Positions 10,395 to 28,448 of a stretch of DNA of 32,104 nucleotides are shown here, one piece after another. The notes under the pieces are model-generated. The model saw only the letters and a list, made by a program, of their open reading frames with translations, searched no databases and was not told where the DNA came from. Numbering within the stretch: the first letter of the stretch is position 1; each line of letters opens with the position of its first letter. Source of the stretch: Thermosulfurimonas dismutans. GTDB lineage: Bacteria > Desulfobacterota > Thermodesulfobacteria > Thermodesulfobacteriales > Thermodesulfobacteriaceae. The stretch lies in the NCBI GenBank assembly GCA_011322625.1, contig DRMH01000101.1, forward strand, positions 1 through 32,104, read 5' to 3'. Position numbers and translations under genes: made by a program.

Positions 10395-10868
10395 ATGGCC
10401 GAGGGCGCAGAAAAGAAGGGAGGAGGCAAGAAACTTCTGATCTTTTTACTCCTGGGTCTGGTCCTGCTGGTGGGGGCCGGGGTGGCGGCCTATTTTCTGC
10501 TTTTTTCCCGCTCCGCCCCTCCCCCGGAAGAGACCAAGAAGGAGGCTCAGGCTCCCCAATCTCAGATAGGGCCCTTTCTGCAGCTGGACCCCTTTGTGGT
10601 CAATCTCTCGGATCCCACGGGCAGACGTTATCTGCGGGTGAAGATCGCCCTGGAACTCAAGGACGATCAGGCCCTTTCCGAGGCCAACAATCGGATCCCT
10701 CAGATCAACGACGCCATCATCATGGTGCTTTCCTCCAAGACGGTGGAGGAGGTGCTGGCTCCGGAGGGCAAATCCGAATTGCGTTTTGAGATCATGAATA
10801 AACTCAACCAACTCCTGGGGCCCGGTAAGGTAAGAGGGGTCTATTTCACTCAGTTTGTGGTGCAGTGA
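10395..10868 (+). CDS. fliL: FliL, flagellar stator-associated membrane protein
   Basis: The 157-residue product has a short charged N-terminus, one membrane helix (about 14-37), a Pro/Glu linker and a periplasmic FliL domain (LDPFVVNL near residue 65, YLRVKIALEL, SSKTVEEVL, VYFTQFVVQ at the end). FliL surrounds the motor stators and supports torque or stator engagement. A strong AGGAGGAGGAA precedes ATG 10395. It is the first gene of the long motility operon and overlaps fliM by one base (ATGA type). Confidence 0.92.
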   Translation: MAEGAEKKGGGKKLLIFLLLGLVLLVGAGVAAYFLLFSRSAPPPEETKKEAQAPQSQIGPFLQLDPFVVNLSDPTGRRYLRVKIALELKDDQALSEANNRIPQINDAIIMVLSSKTVEEVLAPEGKSELRFEIMNKLNQLLGPGKVRGVYFTQFVVQ

Positions 10869-14483: not shown

Positions 14484-15551
14484 ATGCCTGAGGAACCCCT
14501 TCAGGAACGCACCGAGGAACCCACTCCGCGAAGACGGGAGGAGGCCCGCAAGCGGGGGCAGGTGGCCCGCAGCCGGGAGCTGGCCTCGGTGGTGGTGCTG
14601 GGCTCCAGCGTGCTAGCCTTTGCCCTGAGCGGGACCTTCATGTACTATCAGATTCGTGCCGCCCTGGAATTCTTTCTGGGGAATTTCTTCCGGTCCTTCG
14701 ATTTTCCGGAGGGGATGCTGGCCATCCGAAAGGCCTTTTATTTTTCGGTCCTGGGGGTGGCTCCCTTTTTCCTGCTCCTTACCGTAGCCGCTTTCCTGGC
14801 CCATTTTGTCCAGACCGGTGGGGTGGCGGCCTGGGAGGTCCTTTCCCCTAAGGCGGAACGTATAAATCCGGTGGAGGGGTTCAAGCGGCTCTTCTCCATT
14901 CCGGCCCTGGTGGAGCTCGTCAAATCGGTGGCCAAAATCGTCATTATCTCGACGGTGGCCTATCTGGTCATCCGGCACCGTCTGGGGGATCTTCTGGCCC
15001 TTACCGGAGAGGACCTGCACACCCTGGCGGTGGCGCTCTACTTTCTCTCCCGGGATCTGGTCCTGAAATTGCTTATAGCTCTGGTGGTTCTGGCTATACT
15101 GGACTTTTTCTTCCAGCGCTGGGATGTGGAGAGGAAACTGCGCATGACCCGGGAGGAACTCAAGGAAGAACTCAAACAGACCGAGGGTGATCCCCTGGTA
15201 CGCTCCAGGATCCGTCAGCTCCAGCGGGAGATGGCCCGCCGGCGCATGATGGCCGAGGTGCCCCGGGCGGATGTGGTCATTACCAACCCGGAACATCTGG
15301 CTGTGGCCCTTCGCTATCAACTGGGGGAGATGCCGGCCCCCCAGGTGGTGGCCAAGGGTCGGGGGTATCTGGCCGAAAGGATAAAGGAGATGGCCCGGGA
15401 GGCCGGAGTCCCGGTGGTGGAGGATCCGCCGCTGGCCCGGCTTCTCTATCAGCGGGTGGAGGTAGGGAATTATATTCCCGAGGATCTCTATCAGGCCGTG
15501 GCCGAGGTCCTGGCCTTTGTTTATCGCTTGCGGGGTAAGAGGGTCTCCTGA
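14484..15551 (+). CDS. flhB: FlhB, export substrate-specificity switch protein, with NPEH cleavage motif
   Basis: The 355-residue protein starts with EEPTPRRREEARKRGQVARSREL, the usual FlhB N-terminal region, followed by four membrane helices and a cytoplasmic domain. The autocleavage site that is normally Asn-Pro-Thr-His reads Asn268-Pro269-Glu270-His271 here (VVITNPEHLAVALRY). The Asn-Pro bond needed for cleavage is intact, while the Thr is replaced by Glu. FlhB switches export from hook to filament substrates together with FliK. It overlaps flhA by one base. Confidence 0.94.
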   Translation: MPEEPLQERTEEPTPRRREEARKRGQVARSRELASVVVLGSSVLAFALSGTFMYYQIRAALEFFLGNFFRSFDFPEGMLAIRKAFYFSVLGVAPFFLLLTVAAFLAHFVQTGGVAAWEVLSPKAERINPVEGFKRLFSIPALVELVKSVAKIVIISTVAYLVIRHRLGDLLALTGEDLHTLAVALYFLSRDLVLKLLIALVVLAILDFFFQRWDVERKLRMTREELKEELKQTEGDPLVRSRIRQLQREMARRRMMAEVPRADVVITNPEHLAVALRYQLGEMPAPQVVAKGRGYLAERIKEMAREAGVPVVEDPPLARLLYQRVEVGNYIPEDLYQAVAEVLAFVYRLRGKRVS

Positions 15552-17632
15552 TGGCGGAGGGAACCTTAACCCTCAAACGTTACGTGGAACCGAGCAACGT
15601 GGTGGTGGCCGCCGGGGTGGTGGCCCTGCTGGTGATCATGGTCTTTCCGGTACCCCGGGGGCTCATGGATATCCTCCTGGCCCTGAGTTTTACCGTCTCC
15701 CTCACCATCCTTCTCATGTCCATGTATATCCAGAAACCCCTGGATTTTACGGCCTTTCCGGCCCTTCTTCTGGTGACCACCCTCTATCGGCTCTCCCTTA
15801 ACATTGCCACCACCCGTCTTATTCTTCTGCACGGTCACGAGGGCCCTCTGGCCGCCGGGCGGGTGATCATGAGTTTCGGTCAGTTCGTGGTGGGGGGAAA
15901 TTACGTGGTCGGGGCCATCGTTTTTGCCATCCTGGTGATCATCAACTTTGTGGTGATCACCAAGGGAGCCGGGCGAATAGCCGAGGTGGCGGCCCGTTTC
16001 ACCCTGGATGCCATGCCCGGAAAACAGATGGCCATCGACGCGGATCTTAACGCCGGCCTCATCGATGAGGCCGAGGCCCGGCGGAGAAGGGAGGAAATCC
16101 GCAAGGAGGCGGAGTTTTACGGGGCCATGGACGGAGCCAGCAAATTCGTGCGGGGAGAGGCGGTGGCCGGGCTCGTTATCACCAGCATCAATATCGTGGC
16201 CGGGCTGGTCATCGGGGTGGTGCAGAAGGGCTTGCCCCTTTCCGCGGCCCTTAAGTCCTACACCCTGCTTACCATCGGTGACGGTCTGGTCTCCCAGATT
16301 CCCGCCCTTATAGTTTCCACCTCCGCGGGTATCATTGTGAGCCGGGCGGCCTCGGAGTCAGGCATGGGGCGGGATTTCGCCCGTCAATTTGCTTCCCGTC
16401 CCGAGGCCCTGGCCATGGCCGCGGTGGCGGTCTTCCTGGTGGGGCTGCTTCCCGGCCTGCCCACCCTCCCCTTTACGGTGCTGGCCCTGGGGGTGGGAGG
16501 GCTGGCCTACATATCCTTCCGGTTTCAGCAGGCCCTGGTGACCGAGGAAAAACCCGAGGAACCCGAGACCCCGCCTCCCGGAGAGGAGATCGAACAACTG
16601 CTTCCCCTGGATCTTCTCAGCCTGGAGATAGGATACGCCCTCATTCCTCTGGTGGATGAGAGCCAGGGCGGAGACCTCTTGGAGCGGATCAAGAATCTGC
16701 GCAAACAGTTCGCCCTGGAGATGGGAGTGGTTATTCCTCCCATTCATGTGCGGGATAATCTTCAGCTCAAACCGGCCGAATATCTCATCCTCATCAAAGG
16801 GGTGGAGGTGGCCCGCGGGGAGGTGCTTCCGGGTCATCTCCTGGCCATGAGCCAGGAGGAAAAGGCCCCGGAGATCAAGGGGGCTATTCCCACGCGGGAA
16901 CCCGCCTTCGGGCTTCCGGCCTACTGGATACCCGAGGATCGTAAGGAGGAGGCCGAGGCTGCCGGGTATATCGTGGTGAATCTCTCCACGGTGATCGTGA
17001 CCCACTTTGCCGAGGTCATCAAGAGACACGCCGATGAGCTCCTGACCCGGGAGGAGGTTCAGAAACTCCTGAACACCCTTTCCCGCCAGTATCCCAAGGT
17101 GGTGGAGGAGGCCCTGAACGTGGTGAACCTGGGGATCATCCAGAAGGTGTTGCAGAACCTGGTGCGGGAAGGGGTGTCGGTGCGGGATCTGCTCACCATC
17201 ATGGAGACCCTGGCCGATTACGGTGAACGCATAAAGGACCCGGATACGCTAACCGAATATGTACGTCAGAGGCTGGGAAGGGTGATTGTGAAGCCCTATC
17301 TCGATCCTTCGGGCAAACTCTACGTAACCGCGGTGGGCGAGGACATCGAGGAAGCGGTTCGCCGCTCCCTCCAGCGCACCGCGGAGGGTACCTTCCTCAT
17401 GATCGAACCCCGTATCGGCAGCCGCATCGTGGCGGCTCTGGTCCAGGCCGCGGAAAGGATGACCCGGGCCGGCCGGCATCCGGTGTTTCTGGCCACTCCC
17501 ACGGCCAGGCGGCATCTGCGCCGGCTGGTGGAACGTTCCCTGCCGCAGGCTGCGGTGCTTTCCCATGCCGAGATCCCGGCCGAGGTCGGGGTGGAGATCC
17601 TGGAGACGGTGAGGATGGGACGTGAAGATTAA
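15551..17632 (+). CDS. flhA: FlhA, flagellar export gate protein
   Basis: The 693-residue protein has the normal length and layout: an N-terminal membrane part (to about residue 330, roughly eight helices) and a large cytoplasmic domain. The FHIPEP loop signature GKQMAIDADLNAGLID lies near residues 155-170, followed by FYGAMDGASKFVRGEAVAG. The C-terminal domain shows VLQNLVREGVSVRDLLTIMETLADY. FlhA forms the nonameric ring that docks export chaperone complexes. The 3' end overlaps flhF by 11 bases. Confidence 0.96.
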   Translation: MAEGTLTLKRYVEPSNVVVAAGVVALLVIMVFPVPRGLMDILLALSFTVSLTILLMSMYIQKPLDFTAFPALLLVTTLYRLSLNIATTRLILLHGHEGPLAAGRVIMSFGQFVVGGNYVVGAIVFAILVIINFVVITKGAGRIAEVAARFTLDAMPGKQMAIDADLNAGLIDEAEARRRREEIRKEAEFYGAMDGASKFVRGEAVAGLVITSINIVAGLVIGVVQKGLPLSAALKSYTLLTIGDGLVSQIPALIVSTSAGIIVSRAASESGMGRDFARQFASRPEALAMAAVAVFLVGLLPGLPTLPFTVLALGVGGLAYISFRFQQALVTEEKPEEPETPPPGEEIEQLLPLDLLSLEIGYALIPLVDESQGGDLLERIKNLRKQFALEMGVVIPPIHVRDNLQLKPAEYLILIKGVEVARGEVLPGHLLAMSQEEKAPEIKGAIPTREPAFGLPAYWIPEDRKEEAEAAGYIVVNLSTVIVTHFAEVIKRHADELLTREEVQKLLNTLSRQYPKVVEEALNVVNLGIIQKVLQNLVREGVSVRDLLTIMETLADYGERIKDPDTLTEYVRQRLGRVIVKPYLDPSGKLYVTAVGEDIEEAVRRSLQRTAEGTFLMIEPRIGSRIVAALVQAAERMTRAGRHPVFLATPTARRHLRRLVERSLPQAAVLSHAEIPAEVGVEILETVRMGRED

Positions 17633-20531: not shown

Positions 20532-21206
20532 TTGGAGCAGGAAAAGGAAAAAAAGGAGGAGGGACTTCCTCCGGAGGATTTTCCCGAGGAAGTTCCCGAG
20601 CCCCCTCCGGAGCCCGGTGAGGTTAAAGAGGAACCTCCCGAGGAATTGATAAGGGCGCTTGAGTCCGCGGAAGGGGAAGCCGAAGAAGAGACCCCCTCTC
20701 CGGGGAGATGGAAGCGCGCCTCGCGGATCCTCCTCGGGGTGGGGATCTTCGGCTGTCTTTTCGGGCTGGTGCTGGGGGTCTATACCCTGAAGGGGCTTTT
20801 ACACCCGGCCGGAGGGAAGACCCGACCGGTGGAAAGCTCTATCCCGGCCGAGACCCCGGCGCAGGGTCCTCTGGGGTCCCTTCCTCTTCCCGGAAGGCCG
20901 GAACACACTCTGGTGCTCAAGCATTTTCTCATTCCCCTTCAGAGCGAGGGAGGGGCTCCGGTCTTCATCAAGGCCTCGGTGGTCCTCTATTTCACCACTC
21001 AGAAGGAGGTCCTCAGGGCCAGAAAACTGGAAAATCCCCTGCGCACCATCATCTATGAGACCTTTAAGAACATCCCCTTTTACTACTGGCGGAGCCCGGA
21101 GGGGGTTAAGAAGATAAGAGCGGCTCTTCTTAAGTCCCTTAAAGAGCGGGCCCCGGAAAACCTGGTTCCGGTTTCGGTGGAGGTAACGGGATATATTCTC
21201 AAATAA
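20532..21206 (+). CDS. single-pass membrane protein, FliL-like periplasmic domain (uncertain)
   Basis: The 224-residue protein has an acidic, Pro-rich cytoplasmic N-terminus (1-58), one membrane helix (about 65-90), a Pro/Gly linker, and a folded outer domain (about 125-224). That domain shows HFLIPLQS, VFIKASVVLYFTTQKEV and KNIPFYYW and ends VPVSVEVTGYILK. Topology and the pattern of the outer domain recall FliL, but I cannot confirm homology by eye. The start is probably TTG 20532 with GGAGG about eight bases upstream; no ATG is available before the membrane helix. It sits three bases after cheY in the motility operon, so a basal-body or stator-related role is likely. Confidence 0.6.
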   Translation: MEQEKEKKEEGLPPEDFPEEVPEPPPEPGEVKEEPPEELIRALESAEGEAEEETPSPGRWKRASRILLGVGIFGCLFGLVLGVYTLKGLLHPAGGKTRPVESSIPAETPAQGPLGSLPLPGRPEHTLVLKHFLIPLQSEGGAPVFIKASVVLYFTTQKEVLRARKLENPLRTIIYETFKNIPFYYWRSPEGVKKIRAALLKSLKERAPENLVPVSVEVTGYILK

Positions 21207-21215
21207 GAGGGAGTT

Positions 21216-21389
21216 ATGCCGGATAGGATAGAAAAACCCTCGGGTGTGATCCCGGTCCTTCCCTCGCTGGAACACGAGAAACAGAAATCCAGGCGCAGAG
21301 AGGATCGGAAAAGGAAATCCCCGGATCGAGCCCGAAAAGAGTCTCCCGGATCCCGAAAGAAGGAAGGGGAAATCGACCTGGTGATATGA
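21216..21389 (+). CDS. small basic hydrophilic protein of the motility operon
   Basis: This 57-residue frame runs from ATG 21216 to TGA 21387-21389. GAGGGAG just upstream is a good ribosome-binding site. The start is nine bases after the preceding stop, and the end overlaps the next ATG in an ATGA, so it fits the operon's translational coupling. The product starts MPDRIEKPSGVIPVLPSLEH, has a very Arg/Lys-rich middle (KSRRREDRKRKS) and ends EGEIDLVI. There is no membrane segment or signal peptide. From memory, tiny charged proteins ending in a similar IDI/IDL-V motif precede DUF2802 genes in other flagellar clusters. Function is unknown. Confidence 0.65.
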   Translation: MPDRIEKPSGVIPVLPSLEHEKQKSRRREDRKRKSPDRARKESPGSRKKEGEIDLVI

Positions 21390-21772
21390 TCAAGGATCCG
21401 GTTTTCTGGCAGTTTGTGCTGGATTTGCTTCTTCTGGTGGCCATTCTGGTGCTTTTTCTTCGGATCCGGCGCATGGTCCCTTCCTCCCTTCGGGAGGTGG
21501 TCTCCAGACTGGAAATCCTGGAGAGGTTGTCCGAGGATCTGGCCCGTTATCTGGAGGAGGAACGGCGTATTTATGCCCGTCTGGAAAGGGCCCTGGGGGC
21601 CGGGGTGCAGGCCTGGGAAGGGCAGGAAGAGGAACGCCGCACCCTCAAGGAAAAGGTGCTCCGGGATTACCGTCAGGGGATGGGGGTGAAGGAGATCGCC
21701 CGGCGCTACGGCCTCTCCGAGGGAGAGGTGGAGCTATTGATCTCGCTGGAACGATTTCGGAGTAAGAAATGA
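21386..21772 (+). CDS. DUF2802-like membrane-anchored coiled-coil protein
   Basis: The 128-residue product has an N-terminal membrane helix (about 7-25), a Glu/Arg/Leu-rich coiled coil (about 35-90), and a C-terminal helix-turn-helix-like tail (VLRDYRQGMGVKEIARRYGLSEGEVELLISL). This is the layout of DUF2802 proteins found in flagellar operons near fliA and of the related SwrB-type motility proteins. It overlaps both the small basic gene upstream and the FliK-like gene downstream by four bases. The function is not established; regulation or maturation of the export apparatus is an inference from SwrB. Confidence 0.75.
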   Translation: MIKDPVFWQFVLDLLLLVAILVLFLRIRRMVPSSLREVVSRLEILERLSEDLARYLEEERRIYARLERALGAGVQAWEGQEEERRTLKEKVLRDYRQGMGVKEIARRYGLSEGEVELLISLERFRSKK

Positions 21773-22581
21773 GGGTAACCCTTCCGGCCCCGGTCGCCTA
21801 TCTTCCGGAAAATCTCCTGATCCTTTTTGAGCGTCCGGGGCGCGAACTCACCGTGCGGGTCATCGAGGTGGAGGGCAAGACCCTCACCCTGGAAGCCGGG
21901 GGGGAGCGTTTCCAGGCCCGTCTGGCCGGAGCGCTGGTTCCGGAGGATTTTCGCCCCGGGGAGACGGTCCGGGTGCGGGTCCTCTCGGCAGGGCCCCCGG
22001 TGGTCCTCCATCTTATCGAGGGCAGCGGGGTCTCCCGGGTCCAGGAAAGACTGGCGGATCTGGTGCGTCTCGTTCAGGGCAGGGCTTTCCCTCTGCCGGA
22101 GGGGCCTCTGGTTTCGGAAAGACCGGATCTTTCCTCGCTCCTGACCTTTCTGCTTCAGGCCGTCGGCGAACGCCCGGAGGAAGGCAAGGCCCCCCGGCGG
22201 GAGGCCAAAGCGGCGGAAACCCCGCTCACCCAGACCCTTCTTCATCTCTGGAAGGGAGGGGCTCTGATCCTTCCCTTTTTCTTCTCCGATCGGCTTTCCT
22301 GGGGGTTTCTGGAGGCCGATCGGGAAAAGGAAAGACCCCGGGAGAGATATATCTATCTGCGTCTTTTTCTCGGAAATCTGGGATTGATGGAGGCTTTCTT
22401 GCGGCTTCAGGGTTCTCAGCTGAAGGTGGATTTTCTCTTCTCCCGGGAGGAGGCCCTGGCTCTGGCCCGTAAGGAGGTGATTAATCTGAGAAGGGAGCTG
22501 GCGGAAAGGGGATTCTGGCCGGAGATCAGTCTGGAGAAGTCCTACCATGAACCCGGGGCCTTACTGGCCAGGGAGGGGTAA
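21769..22581 (+). CDS. FliK-like protein with C-terminal flagellar hook-length-control domain
   Basis: The 270-residue protein has a beta-rich N-terminal region (VRVIEVEGKTLTLEAGGERFQ) and a low-conservation middle. Its C-terminal stretch (about 193-258: YLRLFLGNLGLMEAFLRLQG, LKVDFLFSREEALALARKE, LRRELAERGFWPEISLE) follows the hook-length-control (Flg_hook) pattern of FliK. It is shorter than typical FliK and lacks the long repetitive ruler region. A dedicated FliK may therefore be elsewhere, with this being a second paralogue. ATG 21769 overlaps the previous stop. Confidence 0.7.
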   Translation: MRVTLPAPVAYLPENLLILFERPGRELTVRVIEVEGKTLTLEAGGERFQARLAGALVPEDFRPGETVRVRVLSAGPPVVLHLIEGSGVSRVQERLADLVRLVQGRAFPLPEGPLVSERPDLSSLLTFLLQAVGERPEEGKAPRREAKAAETPLTQTLLHLWKGGALILPFFFSDRLSWGFLEADREKERPRERYIYLRLFLGNLGLMEAFLRLQGSQLKVDFLFSREEALALARKEVINLRRELAERGFWPEISLEKSYHEPGALLAREG

Positions 22582-24858: not shown

Positions 24859-27519
24859 ATGTCTTTTGAGGAAGACATCCTGCAGGATTTTATAACCGAG
24901 GCCAAGGAAAGCCTGGAGAAGCTGGATGAGGAGTTCGTGGAACTGGAGCAGGATCCGCAGAACACCGAGATCCTTAAGAGCATTTTCCGCACCATGCACA
25001 CTCTCAAGGGCACGGCCGGGTTTTTCGGGTTCAAGACCCTGGAGGGCATTGCCCATTTCGCCGAGGACATCCTCTCCAAATTGCGGGACGGGCTGGTGGT
25101 GGCGGACGAGGAGATCATCGATATGCTTCTCCAGGCGGTGGATCACATCAAGGCCATAGTGGCTCACATTGAGGAACACAAACAGGAACCGGTGGAGGAT
25201 ACCTACCTGGAATTCCTGGTGACCCTGAGTAATTTTGCCGACAAGGTGGCCCGAAGGGCCCAGGGTCAGGCCCCTTCGGAGCCCCCTTCCAGGGAGAAGC
25301 CTCCGGCCGAAGAATCCGCTTCCCCGGAGAAGGAACCGGAGAAGGCGGCCCGGGAAAAGGCCGAGGAAAAGGGGGAGCCCGAGAAAAAGGAGCCGGAGAA
25401 GAAACCCGAACCCGCGGAGGTTCGTCCCGTCTCTCCGGAGCCTCCCCGCAAGGAGGCCCCCAAGGCTCCTCCGCAGGTCACCCTCACCGAGACCCATATT
25501 CGGGTGGATGTAAAGTTGCTGGATCATCTCATGAATCTGGCCGGGGAGCTGGTGCTGGCTCGGAACAGGCTGGTGCAACTGGCCAATCAGAAGGTGGATC
25601 CGGAGCTGATGCAGGCCACCCAGACCCTTTCTCTGGTGACCACGGAGATGCAGGAAGCCATCATGAAGACCCGCATGCAACCCATCGGGAACGTATTCAA
25701 CAAGTTCCCCCGGATCGTGCGGGATCTGGCCCGTTCCACCGGAAAGAAGGTCAATCTGCATATTGAGGGAGCGGATACCGAGCTGGATCGCTCCATTATT
25801 GAAGCCATCAAAGATCCCCTCACCCATCTGGTGCGCAATTCCATCGACCACGGCATCGAACCCCCGGAGGAAAGGGTCCAGCTGAACAAGCCCCCGGTGG
25901 GCACGCTGGTCATGCGGGCCTTTCATGAGGGGGGGCAGGTGATCATCGAGATCGAGGACGATGGCCGGGGCATAGATACGGAAAAGGTCAAGCGTAAGGC
26001 CGTGGAGAAGGGGTTGATCACCCCGGAAGAGGCCGAACGCATGAGCGATCACGAGGCCCTAAATCTGATCTTCAGACCGGGGTTTTCCACCGCGGAAAAG
26101 GTAACCAACATCTCCGGCCGGGGCGTGGGCATGGACGTGGTGAAGACCAACATCGAGCGCCTCGGTGGGAGCATTGAGATCCGGAGCGTGAAAGGGGCCG
26201 GGACCACGGTGCGGATCAAGATACCTCTCACCCTGGCCATCGTTCCGGCCCTGATTGTGGTGTCCGGAGGGGAGCGTTACGCTATTCCCCAGGTTAGTCT
26301 CAAGGAGCTGGTGAACATTGAGGATCCGGAAAAGGAGATCCACCGTATCGGTCAGTCCGAATTCTATCGCCTGCGAGGGAACATCATCCCCCTGGTTCGT
26401 CTGGCCAAAGTGCTGGGGCAGAGCGACGGTCAGGCCCGGAGCCTGGTCATCCTCACCAGCGGGACCATGGATTTCGGTTTGCTGGTGGACGAGGTGAGGG
26501 ATTCGGAAGAGATCGTGGTCAAGCCCCTGGATCGGTTTCTCAAGGGGATTCCCATCTACGCCGGGGCCACCATTATGGGCGACGGGAAGGTGGCGCTGAT
26601 TCTGGACGTGGTGGGGCTATCCCGGCATGTGGGGTTCCGGGCCGAGGAGGCCCGCAAGGCCCTGGAGGAGGAAAAGAAGAGAAAGGACACCTCCCGGGAG
26701 ACCCATTTTATTCTCCTCTTCAACGTCCATCCCGAGGAACAATTCGCCATTCCGCTTTCTCTGGTTTCCCGTCTGGATAAGATCAAGGCCGAGTCTCTGG
26801 AATACGTGGGGGGCAAGGAGCTGGTACAGTACAAGGGTCATTCGGTCCCGGTGATTCGCCTGGAGAATTACCTTCCCATTCAGCCTCTGCCGGAACAGGA
26901 GGAATATAATCTGCTCCTTTTCGAGGAAAACGAGAAGATGGTGGCGGTCCTGGTTTCCCAGATCCTGGATAGCATCGAGACCGATCTCGAGCTGGACGAG
27001 GATATCTATCGCACCGAGGGTATCCTGGGCAATCGCATCATCAACGGCCGCACCACCATCTTTGTGGATATTTACAAGATTATCGAGATGTTCGATCCGG
27101 ACTGGTTTAAGAAACCGGTGCTGGAGATCCATTCCCGGATCCTTTATGCCGAGGATTCCTCCTTCTATGCCCAACTGGTCAAAAACTATCTGGAGGGGGC
27201 GGGCTACGAGGTGGAGATCGCCGAGGACGGGGTCAGGGCCTGGGAGAAGTTACAGGAGGGGGCCTACGACCTTCTTATTACCGACATAGAGATGCCCCGG
27301 ATGAACGGTCTGGAGCTGATTAAGAAGGTGCGGGCCGACGAAAGGTTTCGGGACCTTCCCATCATGGTGCTCACCAGTATTTCGGCGGAGGAGGTCTATC
27401 GCAAGGCCAAGGAGCTGGGGGCGGATGAGTTCCAGACCAAGCTGGATCGGCAGGCGGTGATCGAGGCCGCCACCCGTCTCCTCACCGCGAAGACCACCAC
27501 CGCGGAGGCCGCGGCGTGA
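24859..27519 (+). CDS. cheA: CheA hybrid histidine kinase (HPt-dimer-ATPase-CheW-CheW-receiver)
   Basis: The 886-residue product has an HPt domain with phospho-His47 (TMHTLKGTAGFFG). A Glu/Lys/Pro linker (137-208) lies where the CheY-binding P2 domain normally lies. Next come the dimerisation helices (LLDHLMNLAGELV), then the ATPase with N-box HLVRNSIDHGIE (323-334), DDGRGID (367-373) and GRGVGMDV (420-427). A CheW-like domain follows at about 463-590, a second CheW-like module at about 614-748, and a C-terminal receiver with E765/D766, Asp809 (ITDIEMPRMNG) and Lys861. A fused receiver and lack of P2 point to internal phosphotransfer or a sink. AGGGAGGTAGG precedes ATG 24859. Confidence 0.94.
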   Translation: MSFEEDILQDFITEAKESLEKLDEEFVELEQDPQNTEILKSIFRTMHTLKGTAGFFGFKTLEGIAHFAEDILSKLRDGLVVADEEIIDMLLQAVDHIKAIVAHIEEHKQEPVEDTYLEFLVTLSNFADKVARRAQGQAPSEPPSREKPPAEESASPEKEPEKAAREKAEEKGEPEKKEPEKKPEPAEVRPVSPEPPRKEAPKAPPQVTLTETHIRVDVKLLDHLMNLAGELVLARNRLVQLANQKVDPELMQATQTLSLVTTEMQEAIMKTRMQPIGNVFNKFPRIVRDLARSTGKKVNLHIEGADTELDRSIIEAIKDPLTHLVRNSIDHGIEPPEERVQLNKPPVGTLVMRAFHEGGQVIIEIEDDGRGIDTEKVKRKAVEKGLITPEEAERMSDHEALNLIFRPGFSTAEKVTNISGRGVGMDVVKTNIERLGGSIEIRSVKGAGTTVRIKIPLTLAIVPALIVVSGGERYAIPQVSLKELVNIEDPEKEIHRIGQSEFYRLRGNIIPLVRLAKVLGQSDGQARSLVILTSGTMDFGLLVDEVRDSEEIVVKPLDRFLKGIPIYAGATIMGDGKVALILDVVGLSRHVGFRAEEARKALEEEKKRKDTSRETHFILLFNVHPEEQFAIPLSLVSRLDKIKAESLEYVGGKELVQYKGHSVPVIRLENYLPIQPLPEQEEYNLLLFEENEKMVAVLVSQILDSIETDLELDEDIYRTEGILGNRIINGRTTIFVDIYKIIEMFDPDWFKKPVLEIHSRILYAEDSSFYAQLVKNYLEGAGYEVEIAEDGVRAWEKLQEGAYDLLITDIEMPRMNGLELIKKVRADERFRDLPIMVLTSISAEEVYRKAKELGADEFQTKLDRQAVIEAATRLLTAKTTTAEAAA

Positions 27520-28448
27520 TGGATCCGTTCCAGATACTGGGGGTTTCCCCCCGGGCGAGCTGGGAGGAGATCCGGCGGGCCTATCTGCGCAAGGTAAAGT
27601 CCCTGCACCCCGATCGGGGTGGAGATCGGGAGGCCTATCTGGCCCTTCAGGAGGCTTACGAGACCCTGCGCAGGGCCTGCGAAAGGCGTCGCCGGGTCCA
27701 GGTCCTGCGGGAGCGTCCGCGAGGCGGAGAATATCTTCTTTCCTTCGTGGAGCTTACGGTACGGGAGGTGGCTCTGGGTACGGAGAGGTGGATTCGGGTG
27801 CCCGACACGCCGGGCCCCTGTGAATACTGCGAGGGTCTGGGGCTCGATCCCTACGGTCGTTTCCGGGTCTGTGAATGGTGTCAGGGCACCGGTCTTCTGC
27901 CGGAGGAGGGAGGGCGGTATCATCAGCTCTGTCCCCGCTGTCAGGGGGAGGGAAGGATCTTTCTGGAACTCTGTCCCCGCTGTCGGGGGAAAGGGGAGAT
28001 CCGCCGGGAGAAGGAGTTTCTGATCGTGATACCTCCGGGGGTACGCGAGGGCGATCTCCTTTTTCTGCCCAGGTCTCCGGAAGGTCCGGTCACGGATGTC
28101 TTCCTGGAGGTCTTTATCAAGCGGGACGATCGTTTCTACTTTGAGGGGCAGGATCTGGTCTGTCAGGTGCAGGTTCCCTTCTGGAAGGCCGCGCTGGGGG
28201 GATATATCCGGGTGGAGACCCTGGAGGGCGAGGAGGAGATAGAGATACCCCGGGGGCTTCCCGGGGGTTCCCGGCTGGTGATAAGGCAGAGGGGGCCTTT
28301 TCGTCCCGACGGCGGGCGAGGCGACCTCATCCTTCAATTCGAGATCTGGTTTCCGGAGGAGTATCCTCCGGAGGCTTTAAGATTGCTGGAAAGACTGAAT
28401 CATATCATGGAGGAAAGCTATGGCCGAACTACCTCTTCCCGCCAGTGA
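27519..28448 (+). CDS. DnaJ-like co-chaperone with zinc motifs, inside the chemotaxis operon
   Basis: The 309-residue protein has an N-terminal J domain (MDPFQILGVSPRAS, HPD at 30-32). There is almost no Gly/Phe linker. Four CxxCxGxG zinc motifs start at C101, C118, C138 and C152, followed by a DnaJ C-terminal client-binding domain (FLIVIPPGVREGDLL, DVFLEVFIKRDDRFYFEGQDL, PFWKAALGG). It would recruit DnaK. It overlaps cheA by one base and cheW by 29, so it is translated with them. The housekeeping dnaJ is usually next to dnaK and longer (about 370-380), so this looks like a dedicated paralogue. The last dozen residues overlap the cheW start. Confidence 0.88.
   Translation: MDPFQILGVSPRASWEEIRRAYLRKVKSLHPDRGGDREAYLALQEAYETLRRACERRRRVQVLRERPRGGEYLLSFVELTVREVALGTERWIRVPDTPGPCEYCEGLGLDPYGRFRVCEWCQGTGLLPEEGGRYHQLCPRCQGEGRIFLELCPRCRGKGEIRREKEFLIVIPPGVREGDLLFLPRSPEGPVTDVFLEVFIKRDDRFYFEGQDLVCQVQVPFWKAALGGYIRVETLEGEEEIEIPRGLPGGSRLVIRQRGPFRPDGGRGDLILQFEIWFPEEYPPEALRLLERLNHIMEESYGRTTSSRQ

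Follow-up and report, generated by a model that had tools for sequence, protein, structure and literature searches.

The 57-codon open reading frame (ORF) at positions 21216–21389 of the window, by which we mean the whole stretch of 32,104 nucleotides that was analysed (contig DRMH01000101.1 of Thermosulfurimonas dismutans), is a real gene, and its product ends in the same type of peptide, [ILV][DN][ILV]x[VIA]-COOH, that closes FliK. Because it ends like the export-switch tail of FliK, the small protein probably acts as a regulator of this switch in its own right. We consider the chances about even that it is a free-standing FliK switch tail at the flagellar export gate, probably a competitor; in this proposal we infer the receptor and the sign of the effect.

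The features of the window on which the analysis draws are the following (+, forward strand).

10395–10868, canonical FliL (Pfam E 1e-29).
14484–15551, +, FlhB, a candidate tail receptor judging from the FliK papers (Pfam E 9e-129).
15551–17632, +, FlhA, the other candidate tail receptor on the same grounds (Pfam FHIPEP E 3e-271).
20532–21206, +, FliL-like protein, second copy (Pfam FliL E 4e-4, below cut-off).
21207–21213, +, GAGGGAG, resembling a ribosome-binding site, just 5' of the small ORF ATG.
21216–21389, +, gene of the small tail protein, 57 amino acids, with the N-terminal box MPDRIEKPSGVIPV, a charged linker, and the C-terminal tail IDLVI.
21372–21386, +, codons of the conserved last five residues IDLVI, a FliK-type tail (alignment of 80 representatives).
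21386–21389, +, ATGA overlap between the small ORF stop and the DUF2802 start.
21386–21772, +, DUF2802/DUF6115 protein of the FipA/SwrB type, with a hydrophobic N-terminal helix, a long helix, and an HTH-like end.
21769–22581, +, FliK-like protein (Flg_hook), second copy (Pfam E 3e-7), ending LLAREG without the tail.

The window covers a region of flagellar and chemotaxis genes. Its gene order begins with fliL (10395), fliO, fliP, flhB, flhA, flhF, flhG (named from a ParA/MinD-type match together with gene order), fliA, and cheY, and continues with the FliL-like gene, the small ORF, the DUF2802/DUF6115 gene, the FliK-like gene, cheY, cheB, cheR, cheA, a DnaJ-like gene, and cheW. Since canonical FliL is present in the window and canonical FliK elsewhere in the genome, the FliL-like and FliK-like genes beside the small ORF are second copies. 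The DnaJ-like protein, which has a zinc-finger region (27516–28448), is encoded in overlap with the cheA stop and is followed by the CheW-like gene.

The small ORF extends from the ATG at 21216 to the TGA at 21387–21389 and encodes 57 residues. The first-pass annotation had described a good ribosome-binding site, a start nine bases after the previous stop, and an ATGA overlap with the next gene, and each of these is present: GAGGGAG lies just before the ATG, the FliL-like gene stops at 21204–21206, and the overlap is at 21386–21389. G-rich stretches like GAGGGAG are also found in congeners and are missing in several members from other families. The product contains 17 Lys and Arg (30%) and 11 Asp and Glu (19%) among 57 residues, with a net charge of +6, and is thus basic, yet highly charged overall. 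Its end EGEIDLVI, singled out in the first-pass annotation as defined, does contain the conserved part of the protein; IDLVI is preceded by a Gly codon at 21366–21368 (position −7), where Gly is also common among homologues. AlphaFold2 gave a mean pLDDT of 61, with a single five-residue helix and no fold. There was no Pfam match even at E 1, hence the protein is without the Flg_hook core (PF02120), and no NCBIfam match. Six other forms of the small protein gave no Pfam matches or weak unrelated ones below cut-off, and the other forms searched against NCBIfam gave none or weak ones below cut-off.

That this is a genuine gene of an easily missed size, as had been proposed, is borne out by purifying selection and by its conserved position in relatives. 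The dN/dS ratio of the small ORF against the closest congener is 0.19, compared with 0.13 and 0.17 for the two neighbour genes; of the 17 changes in the small ORF, 10 are synonymous and 7 non-synonymous, and 11 fall at third positions. A protein search of 60 genomes (the own genome and relatives) recovered the own copy and four congeners at E < 1e-4. In the window's order, an intact small ORF lies directly upstream of DUF2802 in 16 of 30 loci (own included); these ORFs have 53–64 codons and the same kind of ending, and the stop is located −14 to +3 bases from the next ATG in all 16 loci read. Phylum-wide, an ORF of 52–110 amino acids ending in the motif precedes DUF6115/DUF2802 in 31 of 41 loci.

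The first-pass annotation had suggested looking ahead of DUF2802 genes for short ORFs in which a C-terminal ID-V motif is conserved, and this search was positive: an ORF of 40–150 amino acids with the tail, and with its stop at most about 320 bases before DUF2802/DUF6115, was found in 52 of 82 loci, against a background of 4 tails on 1171 other ORFs of 40–150 amino acids in the same loci. The 82 loci consist of set A (30 loci out of 33 matches in 32 genomes), set B (41 loci, one per genome, from 42 + 35 matches), and set C (11 of 14 matches, with a T. dismutans duplicate, a second weak G193 match, and a weak G223 match dropped); G014 is counted in both A and B. One genome, G159 (L068), in which the tail ORF lies farther upstream (L127), is a miss in this count and is scored as present in the FliK-tail comparison below. 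In G062 and G099, the tail protein is encoded on the opposite side of the DUF gene.

The same data bear on the view that the ORF is a mere translational leader coupling the FliL-like and DUF2802 genes, its peptide being irrelevant. The ATGA overlap and the short length would suit a leader, whereas the dN/dS of 0.19, the conservation of the C-terminal motif across several phyla, the existence of forms of about 100 amino acids, and forms that precede fliK or lie far from the next gene would not, and we give this view hardly any credence. A chance ORF or a pure leader is ruled out by purifying selection and conservation.

Some loci of the order do not have an intact ORF. In T. dismutans G008 (L033/L184/L228), the N-terminus and the tail are readable in one frame with two stops between them, owing either to decay or to a homopolymer sequencing error; as the FliK tail is kept in this genome, either the organism can do without the gene or its sequence contains an error. 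In G001 (L030), a P-II-like ORF (named by eye) precedes DUF2802 near the contig end in place of the FliL-like gene and the small ORF, an arrangement due to rearrangement or to an assembly join. The remaining 12 loci, all from genera g2, g5, and g6, showed no tail ORF before DUF2802, and where a FliL-like gene is present upstream in these genera, it abuts DUF2802 directly.

The product of the next gene (21386–21772) matches DUF6115 above the Pfam cut-off and DUF2802 below it. Its residues G98, E114, and L117 are the FipA invariant residues at identical spacing, those of V. parahaemolyticus being G110, E126, and L129 (PMC11620751). In these features it is of the FipA type, with the transmembrane helix read from a hydrophobic stretch and with a DUF2802 score below cut-off. 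The AlphaFold2 model of this protein has a pLDDT of 85, and a PDB search with it gave weak matches, mostly to helix-turn-helix domains (best E 0.13). A match to NCBIfam SpiroCoCo_C at E 2e-5 was also recorded, far below cut-off. DUF6115 (PF19610) has matches in B. subtilis and T. maritima, and the B. subtilis match is presumably SwrB. These matches hint at one C-terminal domain common to FipA, SwrB-type proteins, and coiled-coil proteins of spirochaetes. According to the 2015 SwrB paper, SwrB is conserved solely in Bacillus (PMC4526659), and none of the literature searched on the small protein mentions DUF6115.

The first-pass annotation had coupled the small gene to the DUF2802 gene and had suggested that the peptide may be a partner of the DUF2802 protein. 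The coupling stands, and a dedicated peptide partner of DUF2802/FipA (SwrB type), which would tune FlhF recruitment and flagellar positioning, is consistent with the position upstream of DUF2802/DUF6115 in 52 of 82 loci, with the stop and start overlapping or nearly so in 16 loci, and with the retention of the FlhF-binding residues of FipA in the neighbour. However, in some Nitrospinota-type genomes and in one Tectomicrobia-type genome, the small gene lies directly before fliK with no DUF2802 between them; DUF6115 had no match at E 1e-3 in G201, G202, G204, and G208; DUF2802 is present without the small ORF in 12 examined genomes of g2, g5, and g6; and such a partnership leaves the tail common to FliK unexplained. 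We regard it as unlikely. Each gene occurs without the other, so a dedicated partnership is not supported as the main reading, and DUF2802 (FipA-type) is a frequent, non-obligate neighbour of the small gene.

The wider family was delimited as follows. Pfam DUF6115 and DUF2802 anchors in 148 phylum genomes gave matches in 42 and 35, respectively. A profile of the short form recovered from the 148 genomes the own copy alone below E 0.005; since it finds nothing confident outside its order, gene position was used first to uncover the wider family, followed by a long-form profile. The latter matched in 53 of 297 phylum genomes (E 0.01; the own genome is not among them), in 53 of 77 genomes of the phylum of L185/L179 (Nitrospirae/Nitrospinota titles; E 0.01), in 18 of 24 genomes of the phylum of L206/L177 (Nitrospirae/Nitrospinota titles; E 0.001), and in both genomes of the phylum of a Hydrogenedentes contig. 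At least three phyla have small tail proteins in their flagellar operons. All 60 profile-found loci end in the motif, with the profile itself including the tail, and so do the 16 loci read in the phylum of L206/L177 (16 of 18 matches, omitting L301, already known as L229, and L317, which is cut). Several long-form profile matches end short of the tail. In the Hydrogenedentes-type loci L319 and L320, the small proteins encoded ahead of a DUF6115-type gene have the variant ends KVDTLR and KVDLVG, in which the last residue is not hydrophobic.

The conserved part of the family is the extreme C-terminus, [ILV][DN][ILV]x[VIA]-COOH, which follows a charged linker. Among 80 representatives (95 sequences collapsed), position −5 is I/V/L in 80 of 80, position −4 is D in 70 and N in 10, position −3 is I/V/L in 80 of 80, and the last residue is V in 41, I in 26, and A in 13, although some representatives were picked by the motif, so that these counts lean towards it. 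Gly is found at −7 or −8 in 58 of the 80, and 79 of the 80 plot as disordered by charge versus hydropathy. The extreme Arg/Lys richness claimed in the first-pass annotation holds for the 57-residue protein and is weaker in this wider set, where K+R averages 19.5% and acidic residues are also frequent (D+E 17.3%; the values for the window's order are 28.4% and 14.2%). With hhalign, alignment of the short form with the long form is confined to the last 11 columns, at the tail end (probability 79%, E 1.6e-5). Judged from position, descent shared over the whole protein is likely, though short of proof. The 57-residue protein belongs to the family in being short and charged, in having the exact ending, and in being encoded beside DUF2802/DUF6115, fliK, or fliK2. 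A possible resemblance between the N-terminus of the long form (LSQ...) and the CheY-binding helix of FliM was dropped as unsupported. We found no description of the small tail protein in the literature searched and no experiment on the family.

The tail of the small protein is that of FliK. FliK of E. coli K-12 ends GVDIFA (last five residues VDIFA), and the canonical FliK of the own genome, a 545-codon open frame on another contig (G000:C13) that is followed by flgD, ends GALNLVV (tail LNLVV); IDLVI is an ending of the same type. Across the phylum, 39 of the 73 best FliK C-termini end in the motif (73 complete C-termini out of 77 genomes; those of G086, G152, and G043 are not in the sample, and that of G177 is truncated at a contig end). 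The flagellar loci yielded 60 different FliK-like C-termini, of which 21 have the motif (20 when one with a final T is discounted); many near-variants in FliK have S or H at −4. The specificity of the tail to FliK is the strongest point: among 784 proteins of at least 200 amino acids in 100 flagellar loci, 11 have the motif, and these divide into 10 of 20 FliK-like proteins (by our own profile) and 1 of 764 others. The small gene often adjoins fliK or fliK2. Where the slot of Nitrospinota-type genomes lacks DUF2802, a FliK-type gene comes next, with Flg_hook matches in L241, L251 (both below cut-off), and L252, and some of the FliK proteins at these loci have the tail too. The common tail favours the link to the export apparatus that the first-pass annotation had raised.

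The tail in the small protein might also have been moved there from the FliK-like second copy, so that in the window's order FliK is split and both polypeptides act in trans. The adjacent FliK-like protein is indeed tailless in the listed loci of the order while the small protein is tailed, and the DUF2802 gene alone separates their genes. On the other hand, other relatives have both a tailed adjacent FliK-like protein and the small protein (e.g., L145, MVDIVI), and the own canonical FliK is tailed as well; we therefore think a split of this kind improbable.

We also considered the idea that the FliK tail depends on the presence of the small protein, and it failed in the phylum sample: the FliK tail is kept in 13 of 32 genomes where the small protein was not found versus 26 of 41 that have one (Fisher p = 0.06), and FliK does not have the strict motif in 15 of these 41. 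Within the window's order, all 13 genomes in which the small ORF is intact and FliK was sampled have a tailed FliK, and FliK ends GxYYIV, YRIV, or HYFIV in all 14 sampled genomes of g2, g5, and g6 (L335, L336, L338, L339, and L342–L351), in the 11 examined of which the small ORF was not seen at the DUF2802 locus. G001 and G008 have a tailed FliK and no intact small ORF at the locus. Because g2, g5, and g6 are probably one clade, this clean split within the order is probably a single evolutionary event.

Published data on FliK indicate what the tail does. In Salmonella FliK, residues 353–405 are disordered and the last five are important for export switching (PMC10965912). The suppressor fliK(A405V) alters the final residue and shortens the polyhooks of an flhA mutant, and its authors propose that the complex of FliK_C with FlhB_C acts better on FlhA_C (PMC10965912); both A and V occur commonly at the last position in the small family. 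A FliK–FlhA_C interaction has been reported by two-hybrid analysis (PMC13344023). Caulobacter FliK ends LDIRI, of the same sequence class as the tails of the small family, and FliK-C, a Lon substrate, is no longer turned over once these residues are removed (PMC8545394). When FliK-C is overexpressed in Caulobacter, the harm to motility needs LDIRI, as does most of the effect on flagellin, and the authors suggest that the negative effect may arise from the occupation of binding sites such as those on FlhB (PMC8545394).

The Caulobacter data are the basis of the main alternative to an export-gate role. Since the Caulobacter FliK tail is also needed for Lon turnover, a shared tail alone does not imply a shared gate receptor, and the tail could be mainly a Lon signal, with the small protein as a timed substrate or as a competitor that shields FliK. 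The Lon-dependent degradation of FliK-C, abolished without LDIRI (PMC8545394), and the near-identical endings IDIRI and IDIRV of small proteins agree with such a decoy or shared degron. The reported importance of the last five residues of Salmonella FliK for export switching (PMC10965912) argues against it, as do the near confinement of the tail to FliK and the small family in the tested loci, where a general degron might be on more proteins, and the frequent adjacency to fliK and fipA-type genes, which points to a flagellar role. On this evidence, we would not expect a Lon-based role to be the correct one, although it deserves some weight.

The reading we prefer is a role at the export gate: a charged linker with the functional tail of FliK, encoded with early export genes, is best read as a ligand of the same receptor. 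The product would be a small, probably disordered protein, presumably cytoplasmic, whose working end would be a detached copy of the C-terminal switch peptide of FliK. It would be made from among the early flagellar export and positioning genes, in the order flhB-flhA-flhF-flhG-fliA-cheY-fliL2-[small ORF]-fipA/swrB-fliK2. Its tail may dock on the export gate (the C-terminal domain of FlhB and/or the FlhA ring), at the site that the FliK tail needs to end hook-type export. Lacking the Flg_hook core, the small protein would occupy this site and not complete the switch, which would make it a competitor or brake, and FliK, sensing hook length, would later displace it, a timing that is likewise conjectural. 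The brake sign is a choice, and activation, with the small protein as a helper in trans, is equally open. The five-residue hydrophobic peptide could also be convergent between the small protein and FliK.

Among the known systems compared with the small protein, FliK has the same ending and is encoded nearby in many loci. The small protein differs in having no Flg_hook core and 57 residues against a 545-codon frame, and so is presumably too short to be a ruler. In Caulobacter the tail is on FliK itself, and a separate small protein is not described in the portion of that paper at hand (PMC8545394). Fluke (Flk) of Salmonella, a separate protein reported to keep export in the early mode and to bind FlhA_C, resembles our proposal in its described role, with no homology claimed; unlike the small protein, it has 333 amino acids and is membrane-anchored (PMC13344023). 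FipA (DUF2802; PMC11620751) resembles the next gene, 21386–21772, and not the small protein, and SwrB of Bacillus (PMC4526659) is linked to that neighbour through the DUF6115 match in B. subtilis alone. Another detached piece of the FliK–FlhB switch is FlhX/HP1575, called in the title of a paper a 'spare part' for the C-terminal domain of FlhB. Several relatives encode an FlhB-C-like (FlhX-like) ORF after their DUF2802 and FliK-like genes; no credible FlhX-like ORF was found within the window.

Taken together, our results fill an annotation gap, a flagellar-operon protein of at least three phyla with no Pfam or NCBIfam family above cut-off. The last five residues of FliK are important for switching, and their binding partner is left open in the papers as far as these were available. 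Since the small protein keeps only the tail of FliK, its receptor should be the receptor of the FliK tail, and a natural tail-only protein is a ready probe for it. More tentatively, and as a possibility we would rate below an even chance, many bacteria may have a detached export-switch kit, composed of a free FliK tail, a fliK2 core, and, in several relatives, an FlhX-like FlhB C-terminus. The kit would lie beside a gene of the FipA/SwrB type, joined in the window by a second FliL. On this view, the free tail would brake or license the hook-to-filament switch as a factor not described before, and the FliK pentapeptide would be a docking signal that can be carried by different proteins and has a receptor of its own at the gate.
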